A stretch of DNA of 64,000 nt. Origin: Desulfarculus sp. GTDB lineage: Bacteria; Desulfobacterota; Desulfarculia; Desulfarculales; Desulfarculaceae. The stretch spans positions 1 to 64,000 of the forward strand of contig QZKP01000001.1 of NCBI GenBank assembly GCA_003605055.1. Reading direction: 5' to 3'. The position numbers were made by a program, and so were the translations under genes. The notes below the pieces were generated by a model. The model searched no databases, was not told the origin of the DNA, and saw only the letters and a program-made list of their open reading frames with translations. Positions 17,732 to 63,820 of the stretch are shown here, one piece after another. How positions within the stretch are numbered: the first letter of the stretch is position 1; every line of letters starts with the position of its first letter.

Positions 17732-17751
17732 CCTTGCCTTGTGCGCGGGGG

Positions 17752-18186
17752 CTATCCCACCAGGCGGGCGATGTCTTTGCCGTAGGTCTGGGCCATGACC
17801 ACGCCGCCCTCCAGGGCCGCGGATTTAAGGCGCAGGCAATCGCCGCCCATGTTCATCTTGAAGATGTGCTTCATGGTGTCATAGATGCGCTGGGGGGCCT
17901 CGCCGCTCCAGCCGTAGGAGCCGAAGGAGCCGCCGCACTTGCCCTCCAGGCCGGCCTTCTCGGCCAGGAACAGCACCTGCTTCATGCTGGCCATCATCTC
18001 GCCGTGGTAGGTGGCCGATCCCAGCAGATAGGCGTCGTAGCCCTGCAGGTCCTCGGGCTTGGCGATGTCGCCGGCTTTTTTCAAATCCACCTCGGAGCCG
18101 GCCATGCGCAGCCCCTCGGCGATGAATTCGGCGATGCGCTGGGTGTTGTTGGTGCGGCTGGCGTAAACGATAAGCGCCTTGGGCAT
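17752..18186 (-). CDS. Flavodoxin
   Basis: Small FMN-binding electron carrier of the cytoplasm, 144 residues. The phosphate-binding loop SRTNNTQRIAEFI near residue 10, the SATYHGEMMAS segment around residue 58 and the GSYGWSGEAP loop near residue 90 are the three FMN-contact regions. Last gene of a minus-strand set with an FMN-reductase-like flavoprotein and two rubredoxin-type proteins, which together look like an electron-transfer module. Confidence 0.9.
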   Translation of the reverse strand: MPKALIVYASRTNNTQRIAEFIAEGLRMAGSEVDLKKAGDIAKPEDLQGYDAYLLGSATYHGEMMASMKQVLFLAEKAGLEGKCGGSFGSYGWSGEAPQRIYDTMKHIFKMNMGGDCLRLKSAALEGGVVMAQTYGKDIARLVG

Positions 18187-18213
18187 AACTGCACCCTCCT
18201 CTCTGGGCGGCCC

Positions 18214-18798
18214 TCAGGCGGCCGTTTGTGCGATGCGTCGGCCCAACTCACGGGCCTGGTCCATGACATCCGGGCTGCCGGCGGCGGCGCCTTTGGCTTC
18301 CAGGCCCCGGATGAGCAGGCCAGGCTCATAGCTCATGTCCAGGGCGTCGAAGAAGTAGCGGGCGGTCAGCTCCATGCAGTCGAACATGCGCGGGCCCTTG
18401 GTGGCCCCCACCGCGATCAGGTATCCCCGGCCCGCGTCGTGGCGCTTGCGCTCCTCGGGCGTGGTCTTGGCCAGCAGCCGGCCGGACCAGCAGGCCTGGC
18501 TGCGGTCCACCAGGGCCTTGCACTGGGCGGGCAGGCCGTAGAAGAACACCGGCGCCGAGAGCACGATGGCCCGGGCCGACTTGAGCAGGGGGTAGACCTG
18601 CTGCATGTCGTCCTCCACCACGCACTGGCCGGTCTCATCGCAGCCGCCGCACTCCAGGCAGCCGGAGATATTCAGGCGGCGGCAGTAAATTTTTTCCGTC
18701 TGAACGCCGGCCGCGCCGGCCTCGACCAGGACCGCGTCCAGCAACAGATCGCTGTTGCCCCCCTGGCGGGGGCTGCCGTAGATTCCCAGAACCATCAT
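18214..18798 (-). CDS. FMN reductase / iron-sulfur-flavoprotein-like protein
   Basis: Flavodoxin-fold redox protein of the NADPH-dependent FMN reductase family, 194 residues. N-terminal GIYGSPRQGGNSDLLLDA binds FMN phosphate. A compact cysteine cluster (CLECGGC then C after five residues, about residues 47-58) resembles the [4Fe-4S] site of iron-sulfur flavoproteins; SAPVFFYGLPAQCK is the second FMN segment. The start is the first of two tandem ATG codons at 18798; a long upstream extension is the antisense of the neighbouring small gene. It follows that gene by 11 bases. Confidence 0.8.
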   Translation of the reverse strand: MMVLGIYGSPRQGGNSDLLLDAVLVEAGAAGVQTEKIYCRRLNISGCLECGGCDETGQCVVEDDMQQVYPLLKSARAIVLSAPVFFYGLPAQCKALVDRSQACWSGRLLAKTTPEERKRHDAGRGYLIAVGATKGPRMFDCMELTARYFFDALDMSYEPGLLIRGLEAKGAAAGSPDVMDQARELGRRIAQTAA

Positions 18799-18809
18799 GT
18801 GCCGGCGGC

Positions 18810-18980
18810 CTAGACCAGTCGGTCGTCGGTGCCGGGTCCGGCGCAGTCCGGGGTGTAGCAGGACACGTCCACGAACTCGCACCTCTCGTGGCAGGCGGGG
18901 CACTCGTCGGCCGGCTGGGCAGCGGTGTAGGTGTAACCGCACTTGACGCACTTCCAGGTAATTTGGGGCAACTGGGTCAT
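18810..18980 (-). CDS. Small rubredoxin-like zinc/iron protein, 56 residues
   Basis: Found by translating the minus strand directly. The peptide starts MTQLPQITWKC and has seven cysteines: C11 and C14 (CVKC), C27 and C30 (CPAC), C34, C41 and C46. The first four form a rubredoxin-type CX2C...CX2C knuckle with a short insert; the three extra cysteines in the C-terminal CYTPDC region are unusual for rubredoxin. Start ATG 18980 has GGGAGAGA upstream, and TAG ends at 18810. Position between a rubredoxin and a flavoprotein supports an electron-transfer or metal-binding role. Confidence 0.75.
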   Translation of the reverse strand: MTQLPQITWKCVKCGYTYTAAQPADECPACHERCEFVDVSCYTPDCAGPGTDDRLV

Positions 18981-19284: not shown

Positions 19285-19650
19285 TTCCCCTCTCCTTATT
19301 TCGGTCTCCGCCGAGTCCCCTGGCCGTCAATTGCTGGCCCATGTATCGCCGATAATCATTCTTGTTTATTATTTTACGTCCCTCTCGCCGGGTGTCAACT
19401 GATCCATTATATCTACTAAATTAACCGGTAATTGGGTGTATTTGTCTGACGCCTCAGCAAGCTATTATATATAGGGCTTTTATATATATGGAACCACAAT
19501 ATAGGTTATATTTATCTATACATATATAAAAATATCATTGAATTTTCCTTTGACTTCAACCACCTCCCCGGCTACTATTTTTCAACCATCATTCTCAGTA
19601 AAACAGTCCCCTATTGAAACATATCTCCCCCAGGCAAGCGGAGGAAAACA
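19285..19650. other. AT-rich divergent intergenic region
   Basis: A 366-base gap between the divergent rubredoxin and selenoprotein genes. It is markedly AT-rich around 19430-19550 (several TATATA tracts) and holds the plus-strand promoter at 19550-19578. No regulator site could be assigned. Confidence 0.6.
19550..19578 (+). promoter_or_regulatory. Predicted sigma-70 promoter of the rhodanese selenoprotein gene
   Basis: TTGACT (19550-19555), a 17-base spacer and TACTAT (19573-19578), giving a start near 19585 and a leader of about 65 bases before the GTG at 19651. Confidence 0.65.
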
Positions 19651-21024
19651 GTGAAAATCGCAACCACCATCATCAGGCCGGCCCTGGGTCTGTGGGTTGC
19701 AGCCGGGGCCCTGACCCTGCTGCTGGCCGCTCCCCAGCCGGCCGCGGCCAAACTCATGGCCGACCAGAAGTGCCTGAAATGCCACAGCGAGGTCAAGGGC
19801 ATGCAGAGCACGGTGGCCGGCGAGTTCCAGAGCCGGTCCAACAAGGCCATGTCTTTGGTGGTAAACGTGGGCGGTGAGAAAAACATCGTCCTCAAGTACA
19901 CCAAGGACACCACGGTGGCCAACGTGCCTAACATCAAGGCCCTGAAAAAACCCATCCCGGTGCGGGTGAGCTACGTGGCCAAAGGCAGCGACCTGGTGGC
20001 CACCAAGATCGTGGCCAAACCCACCATCAAGGTGCCTGAGAAGCAGCTTATCGGGGTCAAGGATCTGGCCGCCTTGGTGGCCAAGGGGCCCCAGGCCGGC
20101 GGTTTCATGCTCCTGGATTCGCGGCCGCCCATCCGCTACAACGAGGGCCACATCCCCGGCGCGGTGATGATGCCCTTCCCCAAGATGCCCGAGATGATGG
20201 GCAAGCTGCCCAAGGACAAGAGCAAGCTCCTGATCTTCTACTGCGAAGGCTTCAGATGAGTGCTTTCGCCTCTCGCCGCCAGGTTGGCGGAAAAGAACGG
20301 CTACAAGAACGTGCGCGTGTTCCACGCGGGCCTGCCCGCCTGGAGACAGGCCGGCCTGCCGGTCCTGACCACCACCGAGTTCGTCAAGAAGCGCCTGGGC
20401 TACATCGTGGTGATTGACACCCGCGGCCCCCAGGCGGCCAAGGCCGGCCACATCCAGGGAGCGGTGGCCATCCCCCGGGACCAGGTGGTTAAGGAGCGGG
20501 AGCAGTTCCCCCTGGACCACAAGGCCTTCCTGGTCTTCTACGCGGACCAGACCGACATGAACAAGCTAAACCAGGTGACCAAGCAGGTGACCAGTTGGGG
20601 CTACCAGAGCGTCCATATCCTGGACGGCGGCTACCAGGGCTGGCTCAAGGCCCAGGGGCCTATCCAAAAGGACATGGTGAGCACCAAGATCTTCTACCTG
20701 CCCCGGCCCCACCCGGGCGAGATCACCGGCGACGAGTTCATGAATATCGTGCGCAACAAGCCCGCGGGCAAGCTGATCCTGGACGTGCGCACCACGGCTG
20801 AGGCCGCCGGCGGCGTGCTGCCCGGCGCCAAGAACATCCCCGTGGATGAGCTCTCCACCCGCCTGAAGGAGCTGCCCAAGGACAAGGAGATCGTCGCCCA
20901 CTGCCTCACCGGCCTGCGTGCGGAGATGGGCTACAACATCCTGCGCAACGCCGGGTTCAACGCCCGCTTCCTCAACGACAAGGTGGCCATCCTCAAGGAC
21001 CAGGTCTTCTGTTGCTATAAGTAG
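19651..21024 (+). CDS. Periplasmic triple-rhodanese selenoprotein with a c-type heme site
   Basis: Predicted exported sulfurtransferase, 457 residues if the in-frame TGA at 20257-20259 is read as selenocysteine (residue 203). Order: signal peptide (1-33), a single heme motif CLKCH (41-45), an unrecognised beta-rich segment, rhodanese domain 1 (about 144-234), domain 2 (about 240-335) and domain 3 (about 355-440), then a CC pair near the end. Domain 1 reads FYCEGFR-TGA-VLSP, placing the TGA at the active-site Cys of the C-x-G-x-x-C-x-L-S rhodanese loop. Domain 2 lacks a catalytic Cys (FYADQTDMN); domain 3 has C418 (AHCLTGLR). The frame continues in perfect rhodanese homology after the TGA, and a SECIS-like hairpin follows. 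Start GTG 19651 has GGAGG. Conventional calling would split it into two genes, 19651-20259 and 20260-21024. Confidence 0.8.
20257..20290 (+). promoter_or_regulatory. Sec codon and bacterial SECIS-like hairpin
   Basis: The TGA at 20257-20259 is followed, 16 bases on, by a perfect 5-bp stem CCGCC (20276-20280) / GGCGG (20286-20290) closing an AGGTT loop. A GGU-bearing apical loop about 20 nt after UGA is what SelB recognises in bacterial SECIS elements, such as that of E. coli fdhF. Only visual folding was done. Confidence 0.7.
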
Positions 21025-21416
21025 GACCTCGCTGAAGGGCCTCACCGCCCTCTGCCTCGGGGGCCGCCTTCGGGCGGCCCCCACTCCTTTTTTACCCCCC
21101 GCCTTCTCCTCAAACCCTAATTCTGGACCTGGCAATATTTCCAGCAGGAATGAATATTTTTTAAGTCCTGTTCATAATAACCCGACAATTTTTGGGTGTT
21201 TTAAGGTAAGGAAATTAAAAAAATTTTATCTCCGCCGCTGGTGATCCGAAACAATGCGAAAACTAAAATTAATTTAAAAAAACAATTAGATGGGTATTGC
21301 AATTTAAATTTTCGCTCCCGCATACTTTTTACTAGCAGGCAGGTGAATGGAGCGGCCCGCCAAGACCGGGGTGAACCAGGAGGCAGGCGGGCCTCCAACG
21401 AGGGATCGGGGAGGAG
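21025..21416. other. Intergenic: terminator then AT-rich leader
   Basis: Holds the terminator at 21059-21093 and an AT-rich stretch (about 21120-21340), probably the regulatory region of the cytochrome genes. No FNR- or HcpR-type palindrome was recognised. Confidence 0.5.
21059..21093 (+). terminator. Strong intrinsic terminator after the selenoprotein gene
   Basis: Perfect 10-bp stem (21059-21068 with 21073-21082), a TTCG tetraloop and T6 at 21088-21093. Confidence 0.92.
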
Positions 21417-21968
21417 ATGCCAGAATCAGTGATCGCCAGGACCTGGCGAATCAAAGGGGTGAAGCCGGCCTTTTTCGTCTTGTTGGGCCTGCTGCTGGCC
21501 TTCCCCCTGTTCAGCCTGACCTACTACAGCATGTACCGCACCTCCACCCCGGCCTTCTGCGCCTCCTGCCACGAAATCCAGGACGCCTACAACGACTGGA
21601 AAACCTCGCGCCACGCGGTCAACGCCAAGGGCTTTGTGGCCGACTGCATGGACTGTCACCTGCCCGCCCCGCACGACACGGTGGAGTTTTTCTACGCCAA
21701 GACCTTCCACGGCATAAAAGATATCGTGGTCCACTTCATGGGCAAGCAATACGACCGCGCCAAGGCCCGCGAGTTGGCCTGGGCCACCATCAAGAACGAC
21801 CAGTGCCTCAAGTGCCACCGCAACCTGCTCTACATACCCAACCAGCGCGGGGCCATGCTGGCCCACCGCACGGTGCTCTACCCCCGGCCTGGCTACGAGA
21901 AGCAATGCCTGGATTGCCACCGGCCCTTGGTGCACAAGCCCAAGCCGCTTTACGCCTACGGAAGTTAA
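21417..21968 (+). CDS. NapC/NirT-type tetraheme cytochrome c (HaoC-like)
   Basis: Membrane-anchored quinol dehydrogenase that passes electrons to a periplasmic partner. 183 residues: one N-terminal uncleaved helix (about 18-38), then four heme motifs CASCH (48), CMDCH (77), CLKCH (130) and CLDCH (164). The layout matches the NapC/NrfH family. Immediately downstream is an octaheme HAO-like cytochrome, so it fits the haoC-haoA pairing described in Campylobacterota. Start ATG 21417 directly abuts GGGGAGGAG, an unusually short spacing. Confidence 0.88.
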   Translation: MPESVIARTWRIKGVKPAFFVLLGLLLAFPLFSLTYYSMYRTSTPAFCASCHEIQDAYNDWKTSRHAVNAKGFVADCMDCHLPAPHDTVEFFYAKTFHGIKDIVVHFMGKQYDRAKARELAWATIKNDQCLKCHRNLLYIPNQRGAMLAHRTVLYPRPGYEKQCLDCHRPLVHKPKPLYAYGS

Positions 21969-22021
21969 GAACCGGCCGTGAGGCTGAAATTCGTCTTTTG
22001 CTTGCAAGGAGGGATGAGGGG

Positions 22022-23440
22022 ATGAGGAAAAGCCTACTCTGGCTGGGGGCCGCCGCGCTTCTGGCCCTGGCCTGGGGCCTGACGCCGGGCCCGGCCCAGG
22101 CCCAAAAGCCGGTGCCCGCTCCCAACCAGCCGCTGCAAAAAGAGTTCCGCATCGTACGCAGCATGTCCAAGCAGGCGGTGGCCTGCATCCAGTGCCACAA
22201 GCTGGTCAGCCCGGGCATCTTCTCCGACTGGGCCCACAGCCGGCACGCCAGCGCCAACATCACCTGCCTGGACTGCCACAAGGCCGAGGAGTTCGACCCG
22301 GACGTGGCCAAGGAACACTACAAGGTCTACGAGAAGGGCGACAACCCCTGGGCCAAGGCCGCGTACCGGGTGCCCATCTCCGGGGTGGTCACGCCCAAGG
22401 ACTGCTCCCGCTGCCACCCGGACGAGGCCAAGCAGTACTCGGTCTCCAAACACGCCAACACCCTGCAGATCATCTGGCAGATCGACCCTTGGCTCAACTT
22501 CGGGCTCAACAGCGACTTTGAGCGCACCAACGGCTGCTTCACCTGCCACGGCACGGTGCTCAAGGTGGACAAGAACGGCAAGCTGGACCCGCAGACCTGG
22601 CCCAACGTGGGCGTGGGCCGCCTGAACCTGGACGGCTCCCGCGGCTCCTGCTCGGCCTGCCACACCCGGCACCGCTTCAGCGTGGCCGAGGCCCGCAAGC
22701 CCGACACCTGCGGCCAGTGCCACTTGGGCCCGGACCACCCGCAGTGGGAGATATACAACGAGTCCAAGCACGGCTCCATCATGCGCAGCCAAGGGGAGAA
22801 GTGGAACTGGAACGCCGCGCCCGGCACCTGGACGCCGGGGGTGGACTATCGCACGCCCACCTGCGCGGCCTGCCACATGTCCGGCTCGGGCGTGGAGCTT
22901 ACCACCCACGACGTGACCCGGCGCCTGTCCTGGGAGATGCAGGCGCCCCTGACCATACGGCCCCAGGACTTCAAGCCCTGGCCTTCCCAGACCAGTTGGC
23001 AGGAGGAGCGCACGCGCATGCGCAACATCTGCCTGCAGTGCCACAGCCAGGCCTGGGCGGACAGCCACTTCACGCAGATGGACGGCGCAGTCAAGGAATA
23101 CAACAACGTGTACTACCAGCCGGCGCTGAAAAAGCTGGATGAGCTGTACAAGAAGGGCCTGTTGCCCAAGGACGCCTTCTTCAAGGCGCCGCTGTGGGTG
23201 CAGTTCTATGAACTGTGGCACCACGAGGGACGCCGGGCGCGCATGGGCGCGGCCATGATGGCCCCGGACTACTCCTGGTGGCACGGCTTCTACGAGTGCA
23301 AGAAGCGCTACCTGGAGTTCATGCGCGAGGCCGACGAGCTGATCAAGCATCATCAGAAGGCCTACGTGGCGCCCTATTTCCCGGCCGCCACCGGCAGCAC
23401 CCAGAAGCCGCCCCAGATATTCGGGCCCAGGAAGAAATAG
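22022..23440 (+). CDS. Octaheme HAO-family cytochrome c (HaoA-like)
   Basis: Exported octaheme cytochrome of the hydroxylamine oxidoreductase family, 472 residues. A signal peptide ending PAQA precedes eight CXXCH motifs: CIQCH, CLDCH, CSRCH, CFTCH, CSACH, CGQCH, CAACH and CLQCH. The block CHLGPDHPQWEIYNESKHG and the later WHHEGRRARMGAAMM are HAO-family signatures. Family members oxidise hydroxylamine or hydrazine, or reduce nitrite or hydroxylamine. With a NapC-type partner, reduction driven by quinol is likely, but the substrate is inferred. Start ATG 22022 has AAGGAGGG. The frame is open upstream to 21347, but that overlaps the haoC-like gene and has no homology. Confidence 0.9.
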   Translation: MRKSLLWLGAAALLALAWGLTPGPAQAQKPVPAPNQPLQKEFRIVRSMSKQAVACIQCHKLVSPGIFSDWAHSRHASANITCLDCHKAEEFDPDVAKEHYKVYEKGDNPWAKAAYRVPISGVVTPKDCSRCHPDEAKQYSVSKHANTLQIIWQIDPWLNFGLNSDFERTNGCFTCHGTVLKVDKNGKLDPQTWPNVGVGRLNLDGSRGSCSACHTRHRFSVAEARKPDTCGQCHLGPDHPQWEIYNESKHGSIMRSQGEKWNWNAAPGTWTPGVDYRTPTCAACHMSGSGVELTTHDVTRRLSWEMQAPLTIRPQDFKPWPSQTSWQEERTRMRNICLQCHSQAWADSHFTQMDGAVKEYNNVYYQPALKKLDELYKKGLLPKDAFFKAPLWVQFYELWHHEGRRARMGAAMMAPDYSWWHGFYECKKRYLEFMREADELIKHHQKAYVAPYFPAATGSTQKPPQIFGPRKK

Positions 23441-23488: not shown

Positions 23489-23504
23489 ATTGTATTGTGG
23501 TGCC

Positions 23505-25736
23505 ATGTTTAGCCCCAGCGCCCACAACCGCCGCCGCGCGGGCCTGTCCGGCGGAGGAGCCGCCACGCTGCTGGCCCTGCTGCTGATCCTGGCCCTGGCC
23601 GGGCCCGCCTGGGCCACGCCCTTCTTCTCGGCCCAGACCGAAAAGGCCTGCTCGTTCTGCCACGAGGACGCCCACGGCGGCGGCACCCTCACCCCCCAGG
23701 GCTACGCCTTCCGGGCGGCCGGCTTCTACCTGGACCAGAAAGCCCAGCCCATCGCCTGGCGGGCCTGGCTGAACCTGGCCGCCGGCTTCGTGCACATCAC
23801 CACGGCCATCATCTGGTTCGGGGCCATCTTCTACATCCACCTGTTCATCAAGCCCCGGGCCCTGGTCCGGGGGGTGCCCCGGGGCGAGCGCCTGCTGGGC
23901 CTGGGCAGCATGACCCTGTTAGCCGTCAGCGGCGGGGTGCTCACCTGGCTGCGGGTACCCAGCCTGGAGGCCCTGCTGCACACCACCTTTGGCATAGTGT
24001 GGATGGTGAAGGTGTTCTTCTTCCTGGTCATGCTGGCCATCGGCATCCTGGTCAACACCTGGCTGCACCGCCGGCTGCAGGCCGACGCCGAGGCCGCCAG
24101 CCGCGACCCCCTGGCCCAGTTCGACGGCCAGGAGGGCCGGCCGGCCCACATCGCCTATGCCGGCCAACTCTACGACGTGGGCCACAGCAAGCTCTGGCCC
24201 GGCGGCGCGCACATGCGGCGGCACCAGGCCGGCCGCGACCTCACCGCCGACCTGGCGGCCGCGCCCCACGGCCCGGAGGTGCTGGAGCGCCTGCCCAAGC
24301 TGGGGCCGGCGCCCGCGCCCCCGGACCCCGAATCCCTGGGCCCCAGCGCCCGCCTGCTGATGGCGCTGGCCTACCTGGTGCTGGGCTGCATGCTGGTGAT
24401 TCTGCTCTGCCTGGCCTGGTGGAACTGGGGGCCGCCCCTGGCCCGGGCCGCGGAGCCGTTTGATCCGCAGCGGGCCCAGGCCTGCCTGGGCTGCCACCAG
24501 AATGCCACCCCGGCCGTCTTTCACGACTGGGGCCGGAGCGCCCATGCCCGGGCCCGGGTGAGCTGCCTGCACTGCCACCAGGCCGGGCCCCGGGACCAGG
24601 ACCGGGACCAACGGCACCAACGCCACTTCGTCCAGGGTCAGGGCCCCTGGGCCCAGGCCCGCTATGCGGCCCCGGTGGCCGCGGTGGTCACGCCCAAGGA
24701 CTGCTCCCGCTGCCACCTGCGCCAGGGCCAACAGTACGCCCGCAGCAAGCACGCGGGCACCCTGAGCATCATCCAGCAGACCTCCCCCTGGCTCAGCCAA
24801 GGCCTTAGCTCGCCGCTAGAGCGCGCCACGGGCTGCTTTAAGTGCCATGGCTCGGTGCTCAAGGTGGACGCCCAGGGCCGGCTGGACCCCCTGACCTGGC
24901 CCAACATGGGCGTGGGACGCCTGAACCTGGACCACAGCCGGGGCTCCTGCTCGGCCTGCCACGGCCAACACGGCTTCAGCCTGGCCCAGGCCCGCCGGCC
25001 CGAGGCCTGCGGCGTGTGCCACCTGGGGCCGGACCACCCCCAGATGGAGATCTACGCCGAGTCCAAGCACGGGGCCATCTACCGCGCCCAGGGCCGCGCC
25101 TGGCGCTGGGACGCGCCGCCCGAGACCTGGACGCCGGGGGTGGACTATCGCACGCCCACCTGCGCGGCCTGCCACATGTCCGCCGCCGGCCAGACGCCCT
25201 CCACGCACGACGTGGGCCGGCGCCTGTCCTGGGAGTTGCAGGCCCCCCTGACCGTGCGGCCGCAGGAGTTCGGCCCCTGGCCCTCGGCCAGGCCCTGGCG
25301 GGAGGCCCGGCAGGAGATGCGGCGGGTCTGCCTGGCCTGCCACAGCCCCCAGTGGGTGGACAGCCACTTCCGGCAACTGGACGCCGCGGTTCAGGAGTAC
25401 AACGACCTCTATTTCCGGCCCGTGCAGGCAAAGCTGGAGGTCCTGCACGACAAAGGCCTCTTGCCGCGGGAGGCCTTTTTCCGCTCGCCTCTGTGGACCA
25501 GCTACTACGAGCTGTGGCACCACGAAGGCCGCCGGGCCCGCATGGGCGCGGCCATGATGGCCCCGGACTACGTTTGGTGGCGCGGGTTCTATGAATTGAA
25601 GCAACGCTACGTCAAATTCATGCGCCGGGCCGACCGCCTGCTGGCCAGCGGGCAGAAGGCCTACGTGGCGCCCCTTTACCCGGCGGCCGCGGGCAGCCGC
25701 CAGGCCCCGCCCCGGCCCTCCGGCCCGCCCCGCTAG
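23505..25736 (+). CDS. Fusion: heme c + four-helix membrane module + cytochrome-b5-like domain + octaheme HAO-like domain
   Basis: 743 residues. A signal peptide (about 15-37, ending PAWA) precedes a single CSFCH (49-53). Three helices follow (about 88-114, 130-150, 160-187), with His residues at 97, 112 and 159 in a CopD/HemJ-like arrangement. A cytochrome-b5-like domain (about 212-266; WPGG, HMRRHQAGRDLT, APHG) comes next, then a fourth helix (283-307), then an HAO-family region with eight CXXCH motifs (CLGCH to CLACH). If the signal is cleaved, topology puts the b5 domain in the cytoplasm and all nine c-hemes in the periplasm, so the protein could carry electrons across the membrane. The octaheme part is closely similar to the preceding gene. 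The start ATG 23505 has no good ribosome site; TTG 23490 is in frame. Confidence 0.85.
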   Translation: MFSPSAHNRRRAGLSGGGAATLLALLLILALAGPAWATPFFSAQTEKACSFCHEDAHGGGTLTPQGYAFRAAGFYLDQKAQPIAWRAWLNLAAGFVHITTAIIWFGAIFYIHLFIKPRALVRGVPRGERLLGLGSMTLLAVSGGVLTWLRVPSLEALLHTTFGIVWMVKVFFFLVMLAIGILVNTWLHRRLQADAEAASRDPLAQFDGQEGRPAHIAYAGQLYDVGHSKLWPGGAHMRRHQAGRDLTADLAAAPHGPEVLERLPKLGPAPAPPDPESLGPSARLLMALAYLVLGCMLVILLCLAWWNWGPPLARAAEPFDPQRAQACLGCHQNATPAVFHDWGRSAHARARVSCLHCHQAGPRDQDRDQRHQRHFVQGQGPWAQARYAAPVAAVVTPKDCSRCHLRQGQQYARSKHAGTLSIIQQTSPWLSQGLSSPLERATGCFKCHGSVLKVDAQGRLDPLTWPNMGVGRLNLDHSRGSCSACHGQHGFSLAQARRPEACGVCHLGPDHPQMEIYAESKHGAIYRAQGRAWRWDAPPETWTPGVDYRTPTCAACHMSAAGQTPSTHDVGRRLSWELQAPLTVRPQEFGPWPSARPWREARQEMRRVCLACHSPQWVDSHFRQLDAAVQEYNDLYFRPVQAKLEVLHDKGLLPREAFFRSPLWTSYYELWHHEGRRARMGAAMMAPDYVWWRGFYELKQRYVKFMRRADRLLASGQKAYVAPLYPAAAGSRQAPPRPSGPPR

Positions 25737-50075: not shown

Positions 50076-52361
50076 ATGGCGGAGCTAAGATACGTAGGCA
50101 AGGGCCTGCCCCGGGTGGACGCCTTGGAAAAGGTCACCGGCCAGGCCATGTACACCCTGGACCTTACCCTGCCCAACATGCTCTACGGCGGCCTGCTGCG
50201 CAGCCCCCTGCCCCACGCCCGCATCCTGAGCATAGACACCGGCAAGGCCGAGCGCCTGCTGGGCGTCAAGGCGGTGATCACCGGCAAGGACACGCCCTAC
50301 ACCTTCGGCGTCTCGCACATGGACCAGACCCCGCTGCAGACCGAGAAGGTGCGCTACGTGGGCGACGCGGTGGCCGCGGTGGCCGCGGTGGACCAGGACG
50401 TGCTGGCCGAGGCGCTGTCGCTGATCCAGGTGGAGTACCAGGAGCTGCCCGCGGTGTTCGACCCGCACGAGGCCATGCAGGAAGGCGCGCCCCTGGTGCA
50501 CGAGGACAAGCCGGGCAACATCGCCTCCAACCCACGCTACGACATCGGCGACGTGGAAAAGGCCTTCCGCGAAGCGGACTACGTGTTCGAGGACCACTTC
50601 GAGACCCAGCGGGTGGCCCACGTCTGCCCAGAGCCCCACAACAACCTGGCAGTATGGGACGCCAGCGGCAAGCTGACCTTCTACTACTGCTCCCAGATGC
50701 CCAGCGTCACCCGGGTGCAACTGTCCAAGGCCTTCAACCTGCCCGAGAGCCGTATCCGGGTGGTCACCAACACCGTGGGCGGCGGCTTCGGCAGCCGGGC
50801 CACCAGCAAGTTCCCCATGGACTTCGCCGCCATCGTGCTGGCCAAAAAATCCGGCCGCCCGGTCAAGATCGCTTACAACCGAGCCGACGAGTTCATCCAC
50901 TCCACCTTCCGCCACAAGTTCATCATGACCGTCAAGACCGGCATCAACAGGGACGGCACCATCACCGGCCGGCACGTGACCAACATCTGCGACAACGGCG
51001 CCTACAGCGACTACGGGCCGGTGGTCACCAACGTGGGCGGGGCCCTGCAGGGCACGCTGTACAAGTTCATGAACTACAAGTACGACGGCTACTGCGTGTA
51101 CACCAACCTGCCCTACGGCGGGGCCATGCGCGGCATCGGCAACCCACAGGTGCACTACGCCTGCGAGGCCCAGTTGAGCATGATCGCCGAGCGCATCGGC
51201 CTGGACCCTCTGGAGTTGCGCCTGAAGAACGCGGTGGAAACCGGCGACGAGACCGCCTCCGGCGCGATTTTGCAGAGCTGCGGGCTCAAGGAGTGCCTGA
51301 CTCAGGCGGCGGAGAAGATCGGTTGGAAGGAGAAAAAGGCCAACCCCGAGCCCAACCGCGGCCTGGGTATAGCCTGTGGCGTACACTTCACCGGCGTGCG
51401 CCTGTCCCCGGGCATCGACGCCGACTTCGCCGGGGCCACCATCACGGTCAACGACGACGGCAGCGTGAACCTGGCCACCTCCTGCGTGGAGATCGGCTCC
51501 GGCTCCTCCACGGTGCTCAGCCAGATCTGCGCCGAGGTGCTGGGCATCGGCCTGGACAAGATCAACATCATCTGCGGCGACACTGAGACCTGCCCCATGG
51601 GCTGGGGCTCCCGGGCCAGCCGCAATACCGCCGTGGGCGGCATGGCCGTGCAAAAGGCGGCCGAGGACGCCCGCACCCAGATACTGGCCCTGGCCAGCCA
51701 GAAGCTGGAGATACACCCGGACGACCTGGAGATAAAAGAAGGGGTGATCACGGCCAAGGGCGCGCCGGACCGCTCCCTGACCGTGGCTGAGGCGGTGCGC
51801 TTCGGCCGCTACCGCCAGGGCGGCACCGCGGTCATGGCCAAGGCCCACTGGGACGCCCCCAGCACCCTGGCCGACCCCAAGACCGGCCGGGGCAACTTCT
51901 CCATGGCCTTCTCCTTCGGGGCCAAGGCCCTGGAGGTGGAGGTGGACCCGGCCACCGGCCGCATCAATGTGCTGGGCGTGGCCGCCAGCCAGGACCTGGG
52001 CAAGGCCGTCAACCCCCTGGCGGTCAAGGGCCAAGTGGAGGGCGGGGTGCACATGGGCCTTGGTTTCGCCATGTACGAGCAGATCATGCTCGACGAGCAG
52101 GGGCGCATGAAGAACCCCTATCTGCTGGACTATCGCATCCCCACGGTCATGGACATGCCGCCGGTCATCCCCATCCTGGTGGAGTCTCAGGACCCCGTCG
52201 GCCCCTTCGGGGCCAAGGGCGTGGGCGAGATGGCCACCATCGGCATGCCCGAGGCCCTGATCGCCGCCGTGGCCGAGGCCACGGGCCTGTGGATCACGGA
52301 CCTGCCCATCACCCCGGAGAAGGTCTTCCTGGGCCTGAAGGCCAAAAAAGCCGCCGAGTAG
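50076..52361 (+). CDS. Molybdopterin-binding subunit of xanthine-dehydrogenase-family enzyme
   Basis: Catalytic subunit, 761 residues, hydroxylating an unknown aromatic, N-heterocyclic or aldehyde-type substrate with water. GGGFGSRATSKFPMD and PYGGAMRGIGNPQ are cofactor-binding segments, and the catalytic Glu sits in GVGE (E718). The CoxL AYRCSFR loop of CO dehydrogenase is absent, so CO is not the substrate. It follows the 2Fe-2S gene by 3 bases. Confidence 0.93.
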   Translation: MAELRYVGKGLPRVDALEKVTGQAMYTLDLTLPNMLYGGLLRSPLPHARILSIDTGKAERLLGVKAVITGKDTPYTFGVSHMDQTPLQTEKVRYVGDAVAAVAAVDQDVLAEALSLIQVEYQELPAVFDPHEAMQEGAPLVHEDKPGNIASNPRYDIGDVEKAFREADYVFEDHFETQRVAHVCPEPHNNLAVWDASGKLTFYYCSQMPSVTRVQLSKAFNLPESRIRVVTNTVGGGFGSRATSKFPMDFAAIVLAKKSGRPVKIAYNRADEFIHSTFRHKFIMTVKTGINRDGTITGRHVTNICDNGAYSDYGPVVTNVGGALQGTLYKFMNYKYDGYCVYTNLPYGGAMRGIGNPQVHYACEAQLSMIAERIGLDPLELRLKNAVETGDETASGAILQSCGLKECLTQAAEKIGWKEKKANPEPNRGLGIACGVHFTGVRLSPGIDADFAGATITVNDDGSVNLATSCVEIGSGSSTVLSQICAEVLGIGLDKINIICGDTETCPMGWGSRASRNTAVGGMAVQKAAEDARTQILALASQKLEIHPDDLEIKEGVITAKGAPDRSLTVAEAVRFGRYRQGGTAVMAKAHWDAPSTLADPKTGRGNFSMAFSFGAKALEVEVDPATGRINVLGVAASQDLGKAVNPLAVKGQVEGGVHMGLGFAMYEQIMLDEQGRMKNPYLLDYRIPTVMDMPPVIPILVESQDPVGPFGAKGVGEMATIGMPEALIAAVAEATGLWITDLPITPEKVFLGLKAKKAAE

Positions 52362-61092: not shown

Positions 61093-63342
61093 TTACCTGT
61101 CTCTCAAGGCGGAGAGCAATTTTTCGGCGGTGATAGGAAGGTCTGTGATCCACTGGCCGCAGGCGTCGAACACCGCACCTGCCACCGCGTCCGGAGTGCC
61201 TATCATCGCCATTTCGCCAACCCCCTTGGCCCCGAATGGCCCCACTGGGTCGTTGGACTCCACCAATATTGACTTGATGGGAGGCACATCCAGGGCGGTG
61301 GGGGCGCGGTAGTCAAGGAAGTTGGCGTTTTGCATGCGCCCCTGTTCGTCCAACAGGATTGCCTCACCCAAGGCCGCGCCCAGCCCCATGTAGACTCCCC
61401 CCTCTATCTGGCCTACGGCGCCCAGAGGATTTATGGCTTTGCCCAGATCATTGGCTGCAACTACCTCCAGCACCTTCACCCGCCCAGTGCCCGGATCCAC
61501 CTCCAGCTCCACGGCCTTGGCCCCGAAACTAAAGGCGAAGGAGGTATTGCCGTGGCTGGGGGCGTCCCAGTGGCAACTGGTCATGATGGCCTGGCCATTG
61601 CTGCGGTAGCGGTGGAAGCGCACTATTTCGGCGATGTCGTGGCCCTCCTCAGGGCGGGACCTGAGATACACCCGCCCCCAGCCCGCTTCCAGCTCCCTGG
61701 GGTCGGTGTTCATCTTCTGGGCCGCGGCCTTCAGCAAGTGCTCCTTGGCCTCCAGGGCCGCATTCATCACAGCCTTGCCCCCTATGGCCGTGTTGCGGCT
61801 GGCCCTGGTGCCGAAGCCCATGGGGCAGTTTTCGGTGTCGCCGTAGACCACGTGTATGCACTCCAGGTCCACCCCCAGCACCTCGGCGGCAATCTGGCTG
61901 AGGACCGTAGAGGTGCCCGGGCCGATGTCCACGCAGGAGGTGGCTAGGTTCACCGAACCGTCGTCGTTAAAGCGGATTGCAGCCCCTGCGAAGTCGGCGT
62001 CCGGGGAGCCGGGGTAACGGATGCCGGTGAAGTGCACTCCGCAGCCCACCCCCAGGCCACGGTTGGGGCGGGGATCAGCCTTCTTTTCCTTCCACCCGAT
62101 CTCGTGGGCGACCTTTTCCAGGCACTCTGCAAGGCCGCAGCTGTGCACCACCGCTCCTACCGCGGTCTTGTCCCCAGTGCGAGTGGCGTTGTGGATGCGA
62201 AGCTCCACCGGGTCCAGACCCAACTCTGCGGCAATCATGTTAAGCTGGGCCTCCCCGGCGAAATGTATCTGGGTGCTGCCCACGCTGCGCAGGGCCCCGC
62301 CGTAGGGTAGGTTGGTGTACACCGCGGTGCCTTCGTAGAGATAATTCTGGTAGCGATATAGCACGCCCTGCAGAGCACCATCCACCGATGTCACCGCCGG
62401 CACGTAGCTAGCGTAGCCCCCGCAGTCGCTTATCACCTGGAAGTGCCGGCCGGTTATAGTCCCGTCCCGCTTGACGCCGGTTTTCACATTGATCTCATAG
62501 GCGGGCTGGAAGGAGGAGTAAATAAACTCCTCGGCACGGGAATGGCCCATCTTAACGGGCCGGCCGGTCCTTTTAGCTAGGATGGGGGCCACGTAATCCA
62601 TGGGGAAGCGGCTCAGGGTCTTACTGCCGAACCCTCCCCCCACATGGTTGGTGACCACGCGTACTTTGCTGGAGGGCAGGCCAAATGCCTGGGCCAGCAT
62701 ATTGCTGGCCAGTGAGGGCATTTGGGAACTCAGATATAAGGTCAGCCTATCCTGGTCCTCCCACACAGCCAGGCAGTTGTGCGGTTCAGGGCAGAGATGG
62801 GCCATCCTTTGGGTGTGGAAGGTGTGCTGGCACACATAGTCCGCCTCGGCAAAGGCCTGCTCTACTGAGCCGTTCTGGTAGCGGCAGCGTCCGGCCACGT
62901 TGTCTGGTGCATCTTGGTGGATCTGCGGCGCCCCAGGTGCTAAGGCCCGGCGGGGCTCGAAGACCGCCGGCAGCTCCTGGTAATCCACCTTGATGCGGCT
63001 GAGTGCCTCTCGGACCGTGTCCATGTCTACCGCAGCCACCGCAGCCACCGCGTCTCCTACATGACGAACCTTGTGTCGGGCCAGAGGCGTCTGGTCCTGC
63101 TTGGACACACCAAAAGACATTGGCGTGTCTTGGCCAGTGATAACTGCCTTTACTCCGGGCAGCTTCTGGGCCCGGGAGGTGTCGATGTTCAAGATGCGGG
63201 CATGAGGATGGGGGCTACGCAGCAAATCGGCCCAGAGCATGGTGGGGAAGCTCAAGTCGCTGGTGTAGCGCGCGGAGCCGGTGGCCTTCAACCGGCCGTC
63301 TACCTTGGGCACGCTTCGGCCCACGTACCGAAAATCAGGCAT
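61093..63342 (-). CDS. Molybdopterin-binding subunit of a second xanthine-dehydrogenase-family enzyme
   Basis: 749 residues, collinear with the plus-strand copy at 50076-52361. GGGFGSKTLSRFPMD, PYGGALRSVGSTQ and the catalytic Glu in GVGE (E710) are present. Start ATG 63342 overlaps the 2Fe-2S gene by 8 bases and aligns with the other copy's start; GTG 63357 is possible. It belongs to the minus-strand cluster with the transporter and corrinoid genes. Confidence 0.92.
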   Translation of the reverse strand: MPDFRYVGRSVPKVDGRLKATGSARYTSDLSFPTMLWADLLRSPHPHARILNIDTSRAQKLPGVKAVITGQDTPMSFGVSKQDQTPLARHKVRHVGDAVAAVAAVDMDTVREALSRIKVDYQELPAVFEPRRALAPGAPQIHQDAPDNVAGRCRYQNGSVEQAFAEADYVCQHTFHTQRMAHLCPEPHNCLAVWEDQDRLTLYLSSQMPSLASNMLAQAFGLPSSKVRVVTNHVGGGFGSKTLSRFPMDYVAPILAKRTGRPVKMGHSRAEEFIYSSFQPAYEINVKTGVKRDGTITGRHFQVISDCGGYASYVPAVTSVDGALQGVLYRYQNYLYEGTAVYTNLPYGGALRSVGSTQIHFAGEAQLNMIAAELGLDPVELRIHNATRTGDKTAVGAVVHSCGLAECLEKVAHEIGWKEKKADPRPNRGLGVGCGVHFTGIRYPGSPDADFAGAAIRFNDDGSVNLATSCVDIGPGTSTVLSQIAAEVLGVDLECIHVVYGDTENCPMGFGTRASRNTAIGGKAVMNAALEAKEHLLKAAAQKMNTDPRELEAGWGRVYLRSRPEEGHDIAEIVRFHRYRSNGQAIMTSCHWDAPSHGNTSFAFSFGAKAVELEVDPGTGRVKVLEVVAANDLGKAINPLGAVGQIEGGVYMGLGAALGEAILLDEQGRMQNANFLDYRAPTALDVPPIKSILVESNDPVGPFGAKGVGEMAMIGTPDAVAGAVFDACGQWITDLPITAEKLLSALRDR

Positions 63343-63820
63343 CTTCCTGCGCTCCACTCAGCCTTTGGGCCGAGGAGCGGATAGCCTCAACTATGCGCGC
63401 GTAGCCGGTGCAGCGGCAGAAGTTCCCCTCTATGGCCCCTCGGATCTGCTCCTCATCGGGAGAGGGGTGGCTGGCCAGAAAGGCCTTGGCGGTCATTATC
63501 ATGCCCGAGGTGCAGTAACCGCACTGGATGGCCCCCTTGGCGATGAACTCCTGTTGAATGGGATGCAGCCGACCTTCTGGGGCCAAGCCCTCGATGGTCT
63601 CCACTTGGCGTCCGTTGACGTCTACGGCCAGCACCAGGCATGAGTTCACGGGTACACCGTCCAGGAGCACGGTGCAGGCCCCGCACTCCCCCTCCCCGCA
63701 GATTTCCCTGGTCCCCAGCAGATGCAGGTCCTCGCGCAGCACCTCCAGCAGGGTGCGTCGGCTTTCGGCGAATATCTCATGGCTCTCGCCGTTGACGGTT
63801 ATGGTCAGCCTGTGTTTCAC
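63335..63820 (-). CDS. 2Fe-2S subunit of the second molybdenum hydroxylase
   Basis: 161 residues with both cluster sets at the same positions as the other copy: C41, C46, C49, C61 and C100, C103, C135, C137. Start GTG 63820 follows GGAGG at good spacing; the longer frame to 63862 lacks support. Confidence 0.94.
   Translation of the reverse strand: MKHRLTITVNGESHEIFAESRRTLLEVLREDLHLLGTREICGEGECGACTVLLDGVPVNSCLVLAVDVNGRQVETIEGLAPEGRLHPIQQEFIAKGAIQCGYCTSGMIMTAKAFLASHPSPDEEQIRGAIEGNFCRCTGYARIVEAIRSSAQRLSGAQEDA

Follow-up and report, generated by a model that had tools for sequence, protein, structure and literature searches.

A predicted exported selenoprotein with a heme c motif and three rhodanese domains encoded in a Desulfarculus genome

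A protein-coding gene in Desulfarculus sp. carries an in-frame UGA codon that, judged from sequence comparison, almost certainly specifies selenocysteine (Sec) at residue 203. The gene lies at positions 19651–21024 (+ strand) of the 64,000-nucleotide stretch of DNA analyzed here, which we call the window. We lean toward the view that this UGA-recoded product, which combines a single heme c motif with three rhodanese domains and is predicted to be exported to the periplasm, is a carrier and reductase of sulfane sulfur. Automatic calling of open reading frames cuts the gene in two at the UGA, which conceals the active-site half of the protein. It also hints that sulfate reducers may have a sulfur step linked to heme.

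Gene and domain organization

The gene begins with a GTG codon at 19651, encodes 457 residues, and ends with a TAG stop codon. A Shine–Dalgarno-like GGAGG (19640–19644, +) is located 6 nt ahead of the start. An earlier note, made from the DNA letters alone, had described one frame interrupted only by TGA at 20257–20259, and translation of 19651–21021 yields exactly this arrangement. The same note had listed a signal peptide, one CXXCH motif and three rhodanese domains, and all of these were recovered on the + strand. Residues ∼1–34 (19651–19752) resemble a signal peptide with cleavage near AAA-K, as judged by eye on the translation, and a single heme c attachment motif, CLKCH, occupies residues 41–45 (19771–19785). 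With a CXXCH downstream of an export signal (the latter assigned by eye), the protein has the sequence layout of a c-type cytochrome.

The profile for the rhodanese domain (PF00581) matches three stretches of the protein with 138.7 bits against a curated cut-off of 22.2 (E 1e-40). Domain 1 (residues 140–233; 20068–20349) is delimited by this profile and carries Cys198 and the predicted Sec203. Profile matches combined with alignment place domain 2 at about residues 245–340 (20383–20670), where the active-site Cys has been lost, and domain 3 at about residues 357–442 (20719–20976), where Cys418 is found in HCLTGLRA (codon 20902–20904). An AlphaFold2 model based on 32 homologues has a pLDDT of 89.8 and a pTM of 0.78. 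Its N-terminal part is rich in strands and is followed by helices alternating with strands, and confidence falls below 50 at model residues 1–13, which correspond to protein residues 20–32.

Location of the UGA codon in the active-site loop

In domain 1 the loop has the sequence FYC-EGFR-U-VLSP. Translation and family alignments place the TGA (20257–20259, +) at residue 203, five residues past Cys198 (20242–20244, +), which occupies the canonical rhodanese active-site position. Both Cys198 and Cys418 are invariant in a 32-row alignment (numbered there C179 and C399). One exception is known beyond these rows, family member L082, which reads FYD at the position of Cys198. Homologues carry a second Cys where the window gene has TGA (FYCxGxxC). 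The predicted Sec203 is therefore at the second, resolving-type position of the loop and not at the catalytic Cys, where the earlier note had put it. The equivalent loop of domain 2, FYADQTD, has no active-site Cys, so that this residue is kept in domains 1 and 3 only.

Ten of the 12 near orthologues use AGA for Arg202, the codon directly 5′ of the TGA (20254–20256). AGA is rare in these genes, with 11 occurrences in total across residues 34–457 of all 12. The codon preceding Sec may itself be under selection.

Distribution of Sec and Cys at residue 203

Homologues were collected by a class-wide search of 63 genomes (threshold 1e-10), which gave matches in 17, of which 13 were full-length with exactly one TGA, and by a phylum search of 395 genomes (threshold 1e-35), which gave matches at 41 places in 37 genomes. 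Thirty of the 41 places became loci. Eight of the other 11 were covered as neighborhoods, with the loop read at a later stage, and these eight stand outside the alignment, the stem counts and the tree; the last three (in G176, the second place in G340 and a partial one in G352) were left unread. Duplicate rows were merged (L024 and L029 with L021 and L022; L043 and L050 with L035 and L045; L090 with L022).

With the window gene included, TGA is present in 34 members and Cys in nine. The culturable relative Desulfocarbo indianensis has an orthologue (L022). The aligned Sec-type members with TGA at residue 203 number 28, with identities down to 34%, and the eight places read later contributed six TGA and two Cys (L132 and L135). 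Like L132 and L135, the aligned Cys members span all three rhodanese domains; they are L073, L077, L079 and L080, which have CxxCH, and L084, L085 and L087, which do not. In two more CxxCH members, L081 and L082, the residue-203 column is filled by Gly, and a Cys is adjacent to it in a shortened loop. Cys is also found at this position in six distinct paralogues, and the FYCxGxxC paralogues have Cys where L035 has Sec. No TAA or TAG occurs inside the match in any row of the class and phylum searches or in the eight stretches read later. These observations bear on two checks proposed in the earlier note, and both favor recoding: Cys replaces the TGA in nine family members, and no search row has a TAA or TAG at the site.

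Twenty-four members are listed as heme-type, having been chosen for CxxCH. Four others (L071, L072, L074 and L075) have the variant CX4CH, and seven further members are without the motif. A tree of 44 rows, seven of them paralogues, requires at least five changes between U and C, paralogues included, at this one loop position next to a conserved Cys (long branches were flagged by the tree program for L034, L035 and L085). Such a family lends itself to studying what Sec contributes to sulfane-sulfur chemistry.

Selenium machinery in the source genome

The source draft genome (G000; 3.6 Mb, 93.9% complete) encodes selB (383 bits) and selA (606 bits), both over their cut-offs. It also encodes selD (372 bits, over cut-off), which contains a TGA of its own, located by eye within the active-site stretch GUAAK. 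Thus selA and selB, which the earlier note had asked for together with selC, are present; a search of the draft for selC, the gene for tRNA-Sec, gave no match.

Across the taxonomic family, selC was found in 12 of 20 genomes. Eleven genomes of the family have a full-length TGA gene; selC was found in seven of them (G043, G044, G045, G046, G048, G049 and G050) and not in G000, G047, G051 and G055, which are 93.9, 82, 92 and 70% complete, respectively. In G045, G046, G048 and G049, selC adjoins a CCA-adding-enzyme-like gene (named by eye); G050 has them on separate contigs. Of the eight genomes in the genus, six have this neighbor (G051 just a fragment of it, at the end of a contig), and it was not found in the source genome or G047. 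Because the neighbor of selC is missing from the draft as well, the pattern fits a gap in the assembly. The simplest reading is that such a gap explains the absent tRNA-Sec. The view that this is a Sec-containing, heme-motif, triple-rhodanese protein, as first suggested in the earlier note, is supported by the Cys homologues, by selA, selB and selD, and by the lack of TAA or TAG at the site.

A candidate SECIS hairpin downstream from the UGA

The upper stem-loop of a candidate SECIS element, CCGCC-AGGTT-GGCGG (20276–20290, +), begins 16 nt past the TGA, just as the earlier note had reported. Published rules for bacterial SECIS elements (bSECIS) call for a G in the first two loop positions, a spacing of 16–37 nt and an MFE of no more than −7.5 (PMC13188914, available text). 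The hairpin, for which the earlier note had proposed a SECIS prediction as a check, fits these rules, with 6 bp, the loop GGT, a distance of 22 nt from the TGA and −8.6 kcal/mol. We rejected the prediction by itself as evidence, since hairpins that fit the rules also follow 198 of the window's 1507 TGA triplets, 139 of them at least as stable (the window scan used a minimum stem of 5 bp and the member-by-member run one of 4 bp). Given how often chance sites pass, the argument is carried by the comparison of Sec with Cys sequences.

Hairpins that conform to the bSECIS rules are present in 25 of 28 Sec members (L076, L078 and L083 fail) and in one of 13 Cys sequences, there at a different spacing. 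Among the 24 distinct rows of the Sec set, 94.4% of the pair cells are standard pairs and the covariation score is 0.215 versus 0.096 for shuffled rows; none of 500 shuffles was as high on either measure. Compensatory changes convert C–G to G–C and U–A at one pair and A–U to C–G at another; 63 of 500 shuffles had at least as many pairs (two) altered on both sides. In the Cys set (seven family members and six paralogues), 56.4% of the cells are paired, which does not exceed the level of shuffled rows (162 of 500 shuffles as high). The outer pair 20–34 is formed in none of the 13, and a covariation score of 0.197 was equalled or exceeded in 29 of 500 shuffles.

The coding sequence over the hairpin is also constrained. 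Codons 209–213 (GCC GCC AGG TTG GCG) are identical in all 12 near orthologues, and synonymous differences affect 0.087 of pairs at codons 208–215 versus a gene mean of 0.283. The value is lower still around codons 357–364 and about as low at 116–122, and therefore synonymous constraint at the hairpin is not unique in the gene. The AGG at codon 211 accounts for 12 of the 17 AGG codons present in residues 34–457 of the 12 near orthologues.

Other rhodanese selenoprotein genes were encountered during this work. Contig C12 of the source genome encodes a TsoB double selenoprotein (L002, 1321–3111, +; 957 bits, cut-off 805) whose loop reads FYUAGLAU; residue 203 corresponds in the alignment to the second Sec of this loop, and a hairpin lies 22 nt past the second TGA. 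A second rhodanese family, [IV]YCRSF[RK][U/C]LR, alternates between TGA and Cys in closely related genomes, with U in L041, L045/L050 and L048 and C in L040, L042, L044, L046 and L047. No hairpin conforming to the bSECIS rules was found past the TGA in its three Sec copies. Two more rhodaneses, L003 in the source genome (AYUALGARS) and L038 (AYUAAGVRS), carry TGA in place of the catalytic Cys itself, and the hairpin of L038 conforms to the rules.

Gene neighborhood and regulation

Next to the gene, as the earlier note had remarked, are two genes for HAO-like cytochromes (21347–23437 and 23490–25733). We rejected a link to them as conserved partners, because homologues recur at only one of the 22 loci searched with the window neighbors (L094), where they are ∼5 kb away on the opposite strand, and this is weak evidence for a shared pathway. 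The protein encoded at 23490–25733 (+) combines CopD-like membrane, cytochrome b5-like and multiheme domains in a single chain, and the adjoining 21347–23437 encodes a second multiheme cytochrome. Divergent from the selenoprotein gene are flavodoxin-like and NADPH-dependent FMN reductase-like genes (∼17750–18951, −; named by eye), a stretch that was also matched beside the orthologue in L094. Elsewhere in the window, 50076–52361 (+) and 61093–63357 (−) encode large subunits of Mo hydroxylases that resemble 4-hydroxybenzoyl-CoA reductase and xanthine dehydrogenase. Both subunits score below the curated cut-offs.

A different neighborhood is seen at L104–L107, which have CxxCH and Cys at residue 203. 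Within the flanks examined, these loci carry a PhsA-like Mo enzyme and NrfD; the PhsA-like copy at L104 has a Tat signal and scores 520 bits, under the cut-off of 694. A DUF3373 protein is present in three of the four, and L105 also encodes ExtM (1010.6 bits, cut-off 800) and an ExtN/ExtO-type cytochrome (654–661 bits, cut-off 200). No PhsA/PsrA-type Mo enzyme was found among the scanned window neighbors or beside near orthologues, and no close PhsA/NrfD operon was found at any Sec locus examined. Distant PhsA matches occur at L133 (39% identity) and L131 (25% identity). The loci L127 and L129, which hold the CxxCH members with the shortened loop (L081 and L082), have no PhsA/NrfD, DUF3373, ExtM or ExtN/ExtO.

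In six near orthologues, a PAS/sigma-54 activator with 83–100% identity to that of L093 lies beside the gene, and four further loci have one at 52–59% identity. Sites matching sigma-54 promoters at 10–11 of 11 positions occur within ∼350 nt upstream of the aligned or called start at L021, L022, L088, L089, L091, L092, L093, L097, L132, L133 and L137, compared with a total of 32 such sites in 1.42 million strand-bases. At L021, L088, L089, L091, L092 and L093 the activator is divergent and sigma-54-like sites face both genes. For the window copy no sigma-54 promoter was found, the best candidates matching 8 of 11 positions. The regulator of the sister genomes has no match in the window, and in G000 near full-length matches reach at best 43–44% identity.

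A possible role in sulfane-sulfur chemistry

Three lines of evidence suggest a role in sulfur metabolism: the active-site loop, the PhsA/NrfD genes found beside the Cys clade, and a published triple-rhodanese protein of a Psr operon. The last has a signal peptide and is described in the available text of PMC12142623 as upregulated in sulfur disproportionation. A similar operon of rhodanese, molybdopterin oxidoreductase and polysulfide reductase genes is highly expressed in D. alkaliphilus, according to the part of PMC5516251 at hand. None of the Sec loci examined lies close to a PhsA/NrfD operon, so that a role of the Sec proteins in sulfur reduction is extrapolated from Cys relatives.

On these grounds the protein probably transfers sulfane sulfur. 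Cys198 would accept sulfane sulfur from polysulfide or thiosulfate to form a persulfide. Sec203 in the same loop could then attack the Cys198 persulfide, releasing HS− and leaving a Cys–Sec bridge; we propose this resolving step tentatively, as somewhat less probable than the transfer itself. The heme or a partner cytochrome would re-reduce the bridge, although direct coupling to the heme seems rather unlikely. Sulfane sulfur might be loaded onto either Cys418 or Cys198, with domain 3 providing a second sulfur-carrying site and domain 2 serving as a structural element. No conserved distal Met or His for the heme was seen. Lys123 is present in all 24 listed heme-motif members and in three of the seven others.

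A bolder version of this scheme, which we regard as improbable, is a Mo-free persulfide reductase in a single polypeptide. Electrons would pass from the heme, with no conserved distal Met or His, to the Cys–Sec couple and yield periplasmic sulfide, with domain 3 as the loading site. If true, this would be a new route for the reduction of polysulfide or thiosulfate that replaces Psr/Phs in Sec-using lineages.

Alternative interpretations

It is highly improbable that the TGA is a genuine stop codon, which would leave a pair of genes, a product reinitiated at GTG 20260 or a pseudogene. A GTG does follow the TGA directly in the window gene, and tRNA-Sec is missing from the draft. However, 12 of the 28 aligned Sec members have GCC, ATT, GCG or GGC as the next codon, none of which is a usual start codon, and TAA and TAG are absent from the search rows and the later-read stretches. 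On these two findings we rejected the idea of two separate genes. A break at this site would also cut the active-site loop, and the Cys relatives are continuous; the SECIS hairpin and the synonymous constraint likewise speak against a stop.

If the UGA is read as Sec, the protein might still do something other than carry sulfur. A Cys and a Sec or Cys five residues apart are able to form a redox couple, and Cys198/Sec203 might therefore reduce periplasmic disulfides or peroxides on a rhodanese fold that serves only as a scaffold. The loss of the Cys from domain 2 fits this proposal, as does TsoB, in which UxxxxU in the same loop belongs to a rhodanese/DsbD fusion. We nevertheless judge such a thiol–disulfide function to be unlikely, given that Cys198 and Cys418 are invariant in the 32 rows, that the loop of domain 3 is canonical, and that four CxxCH/Cys members have PhsA/NrfD-type neighbors. 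A comparably low probability is assigned to a role with selenium in place of sulfur, in which the protein would carry selenite-derived or perselenide selenium in the periplasm and take part in selenite or tellurite reduction like the Ext operon. The Cys member at L105 adjoins ExtM and an ExtN/ExtO-type cytochrome, and ExtH of Geobacter sulfurreducens is a 49.0-kDa rhodanese-like protein of the ext cluster, in which deletion of extI impairs the reduction of selenite and tellurite (PMC5877670 and PMC6148476, available text). However, L105 is the only one of 42 loci (41 places) with an ExtM/ExtN match, and it has the PhsA/NrfD pair too. Sulfane-sulfur transfer thus remains the reading that we prefer.

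Comparison with known systems

A close published parallel is RS06465, the sulfurtransferase of the Psr operon of Desulfurivibrio dismutans, which like the window protein has three PF00581 domains and is exported (PMC12142623, available text). Its setting resembles that of the CxxCH/Cys relatives at L104–L107, beside a PhsA-like enzyme and NrfD, whereas the Sec loci are without Psr-type genes. Unlike the window protein, RS06465 is a predicted lipoprotein, and the section of PMC12142623 that describes it mentions neither Sec nor heme.

ExtH is similar in size to the window protein, and ext-type neighbors occur at L105. As described in the available text of PMC6148476 and PMC5877670, ExtH is a lipoprotein, whereas no lipobox is seen by eye in the window protein; the predicted selenoprotein of the ext cluster is ExtKL and not ExtH. 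No match to the NCBIfam models named Ext was obtained with the window protein or six relatives. TsoB (NF045694) resembles the window protein in a rhodanese domain whose loop has Sec at the place of Sec203, but differs in having two Sec residues and a DsbD-like part. The window protein scores 86.4 bits against this model, under the cut-off of 805, and 71 bits against rhodanese_LYCAU (NF041203), under the cut-off of 115.

Rhodanese selenoproteins have already been catalogued in five forms (PMC13188914, available text). Form 1 (PF00581, UxxS, WP_010941598.1) has a motif that U-V-L-S of the window protein fits, a likeness by motif alone; it could belong to this family or to another one. The earlier note had suggested that the combination may be undescribed. 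A heme-bearing rhodanese selenoprotein, or a heme together with the Cys198/Sec203 pair, was not found in the mainly open-access literature searched. Secreted triple-rhodanese partners of Psr and rhodanese selenoproteins have both been published, and within the searched literature it is the joining of a heme motif with CxxxxU that is new.
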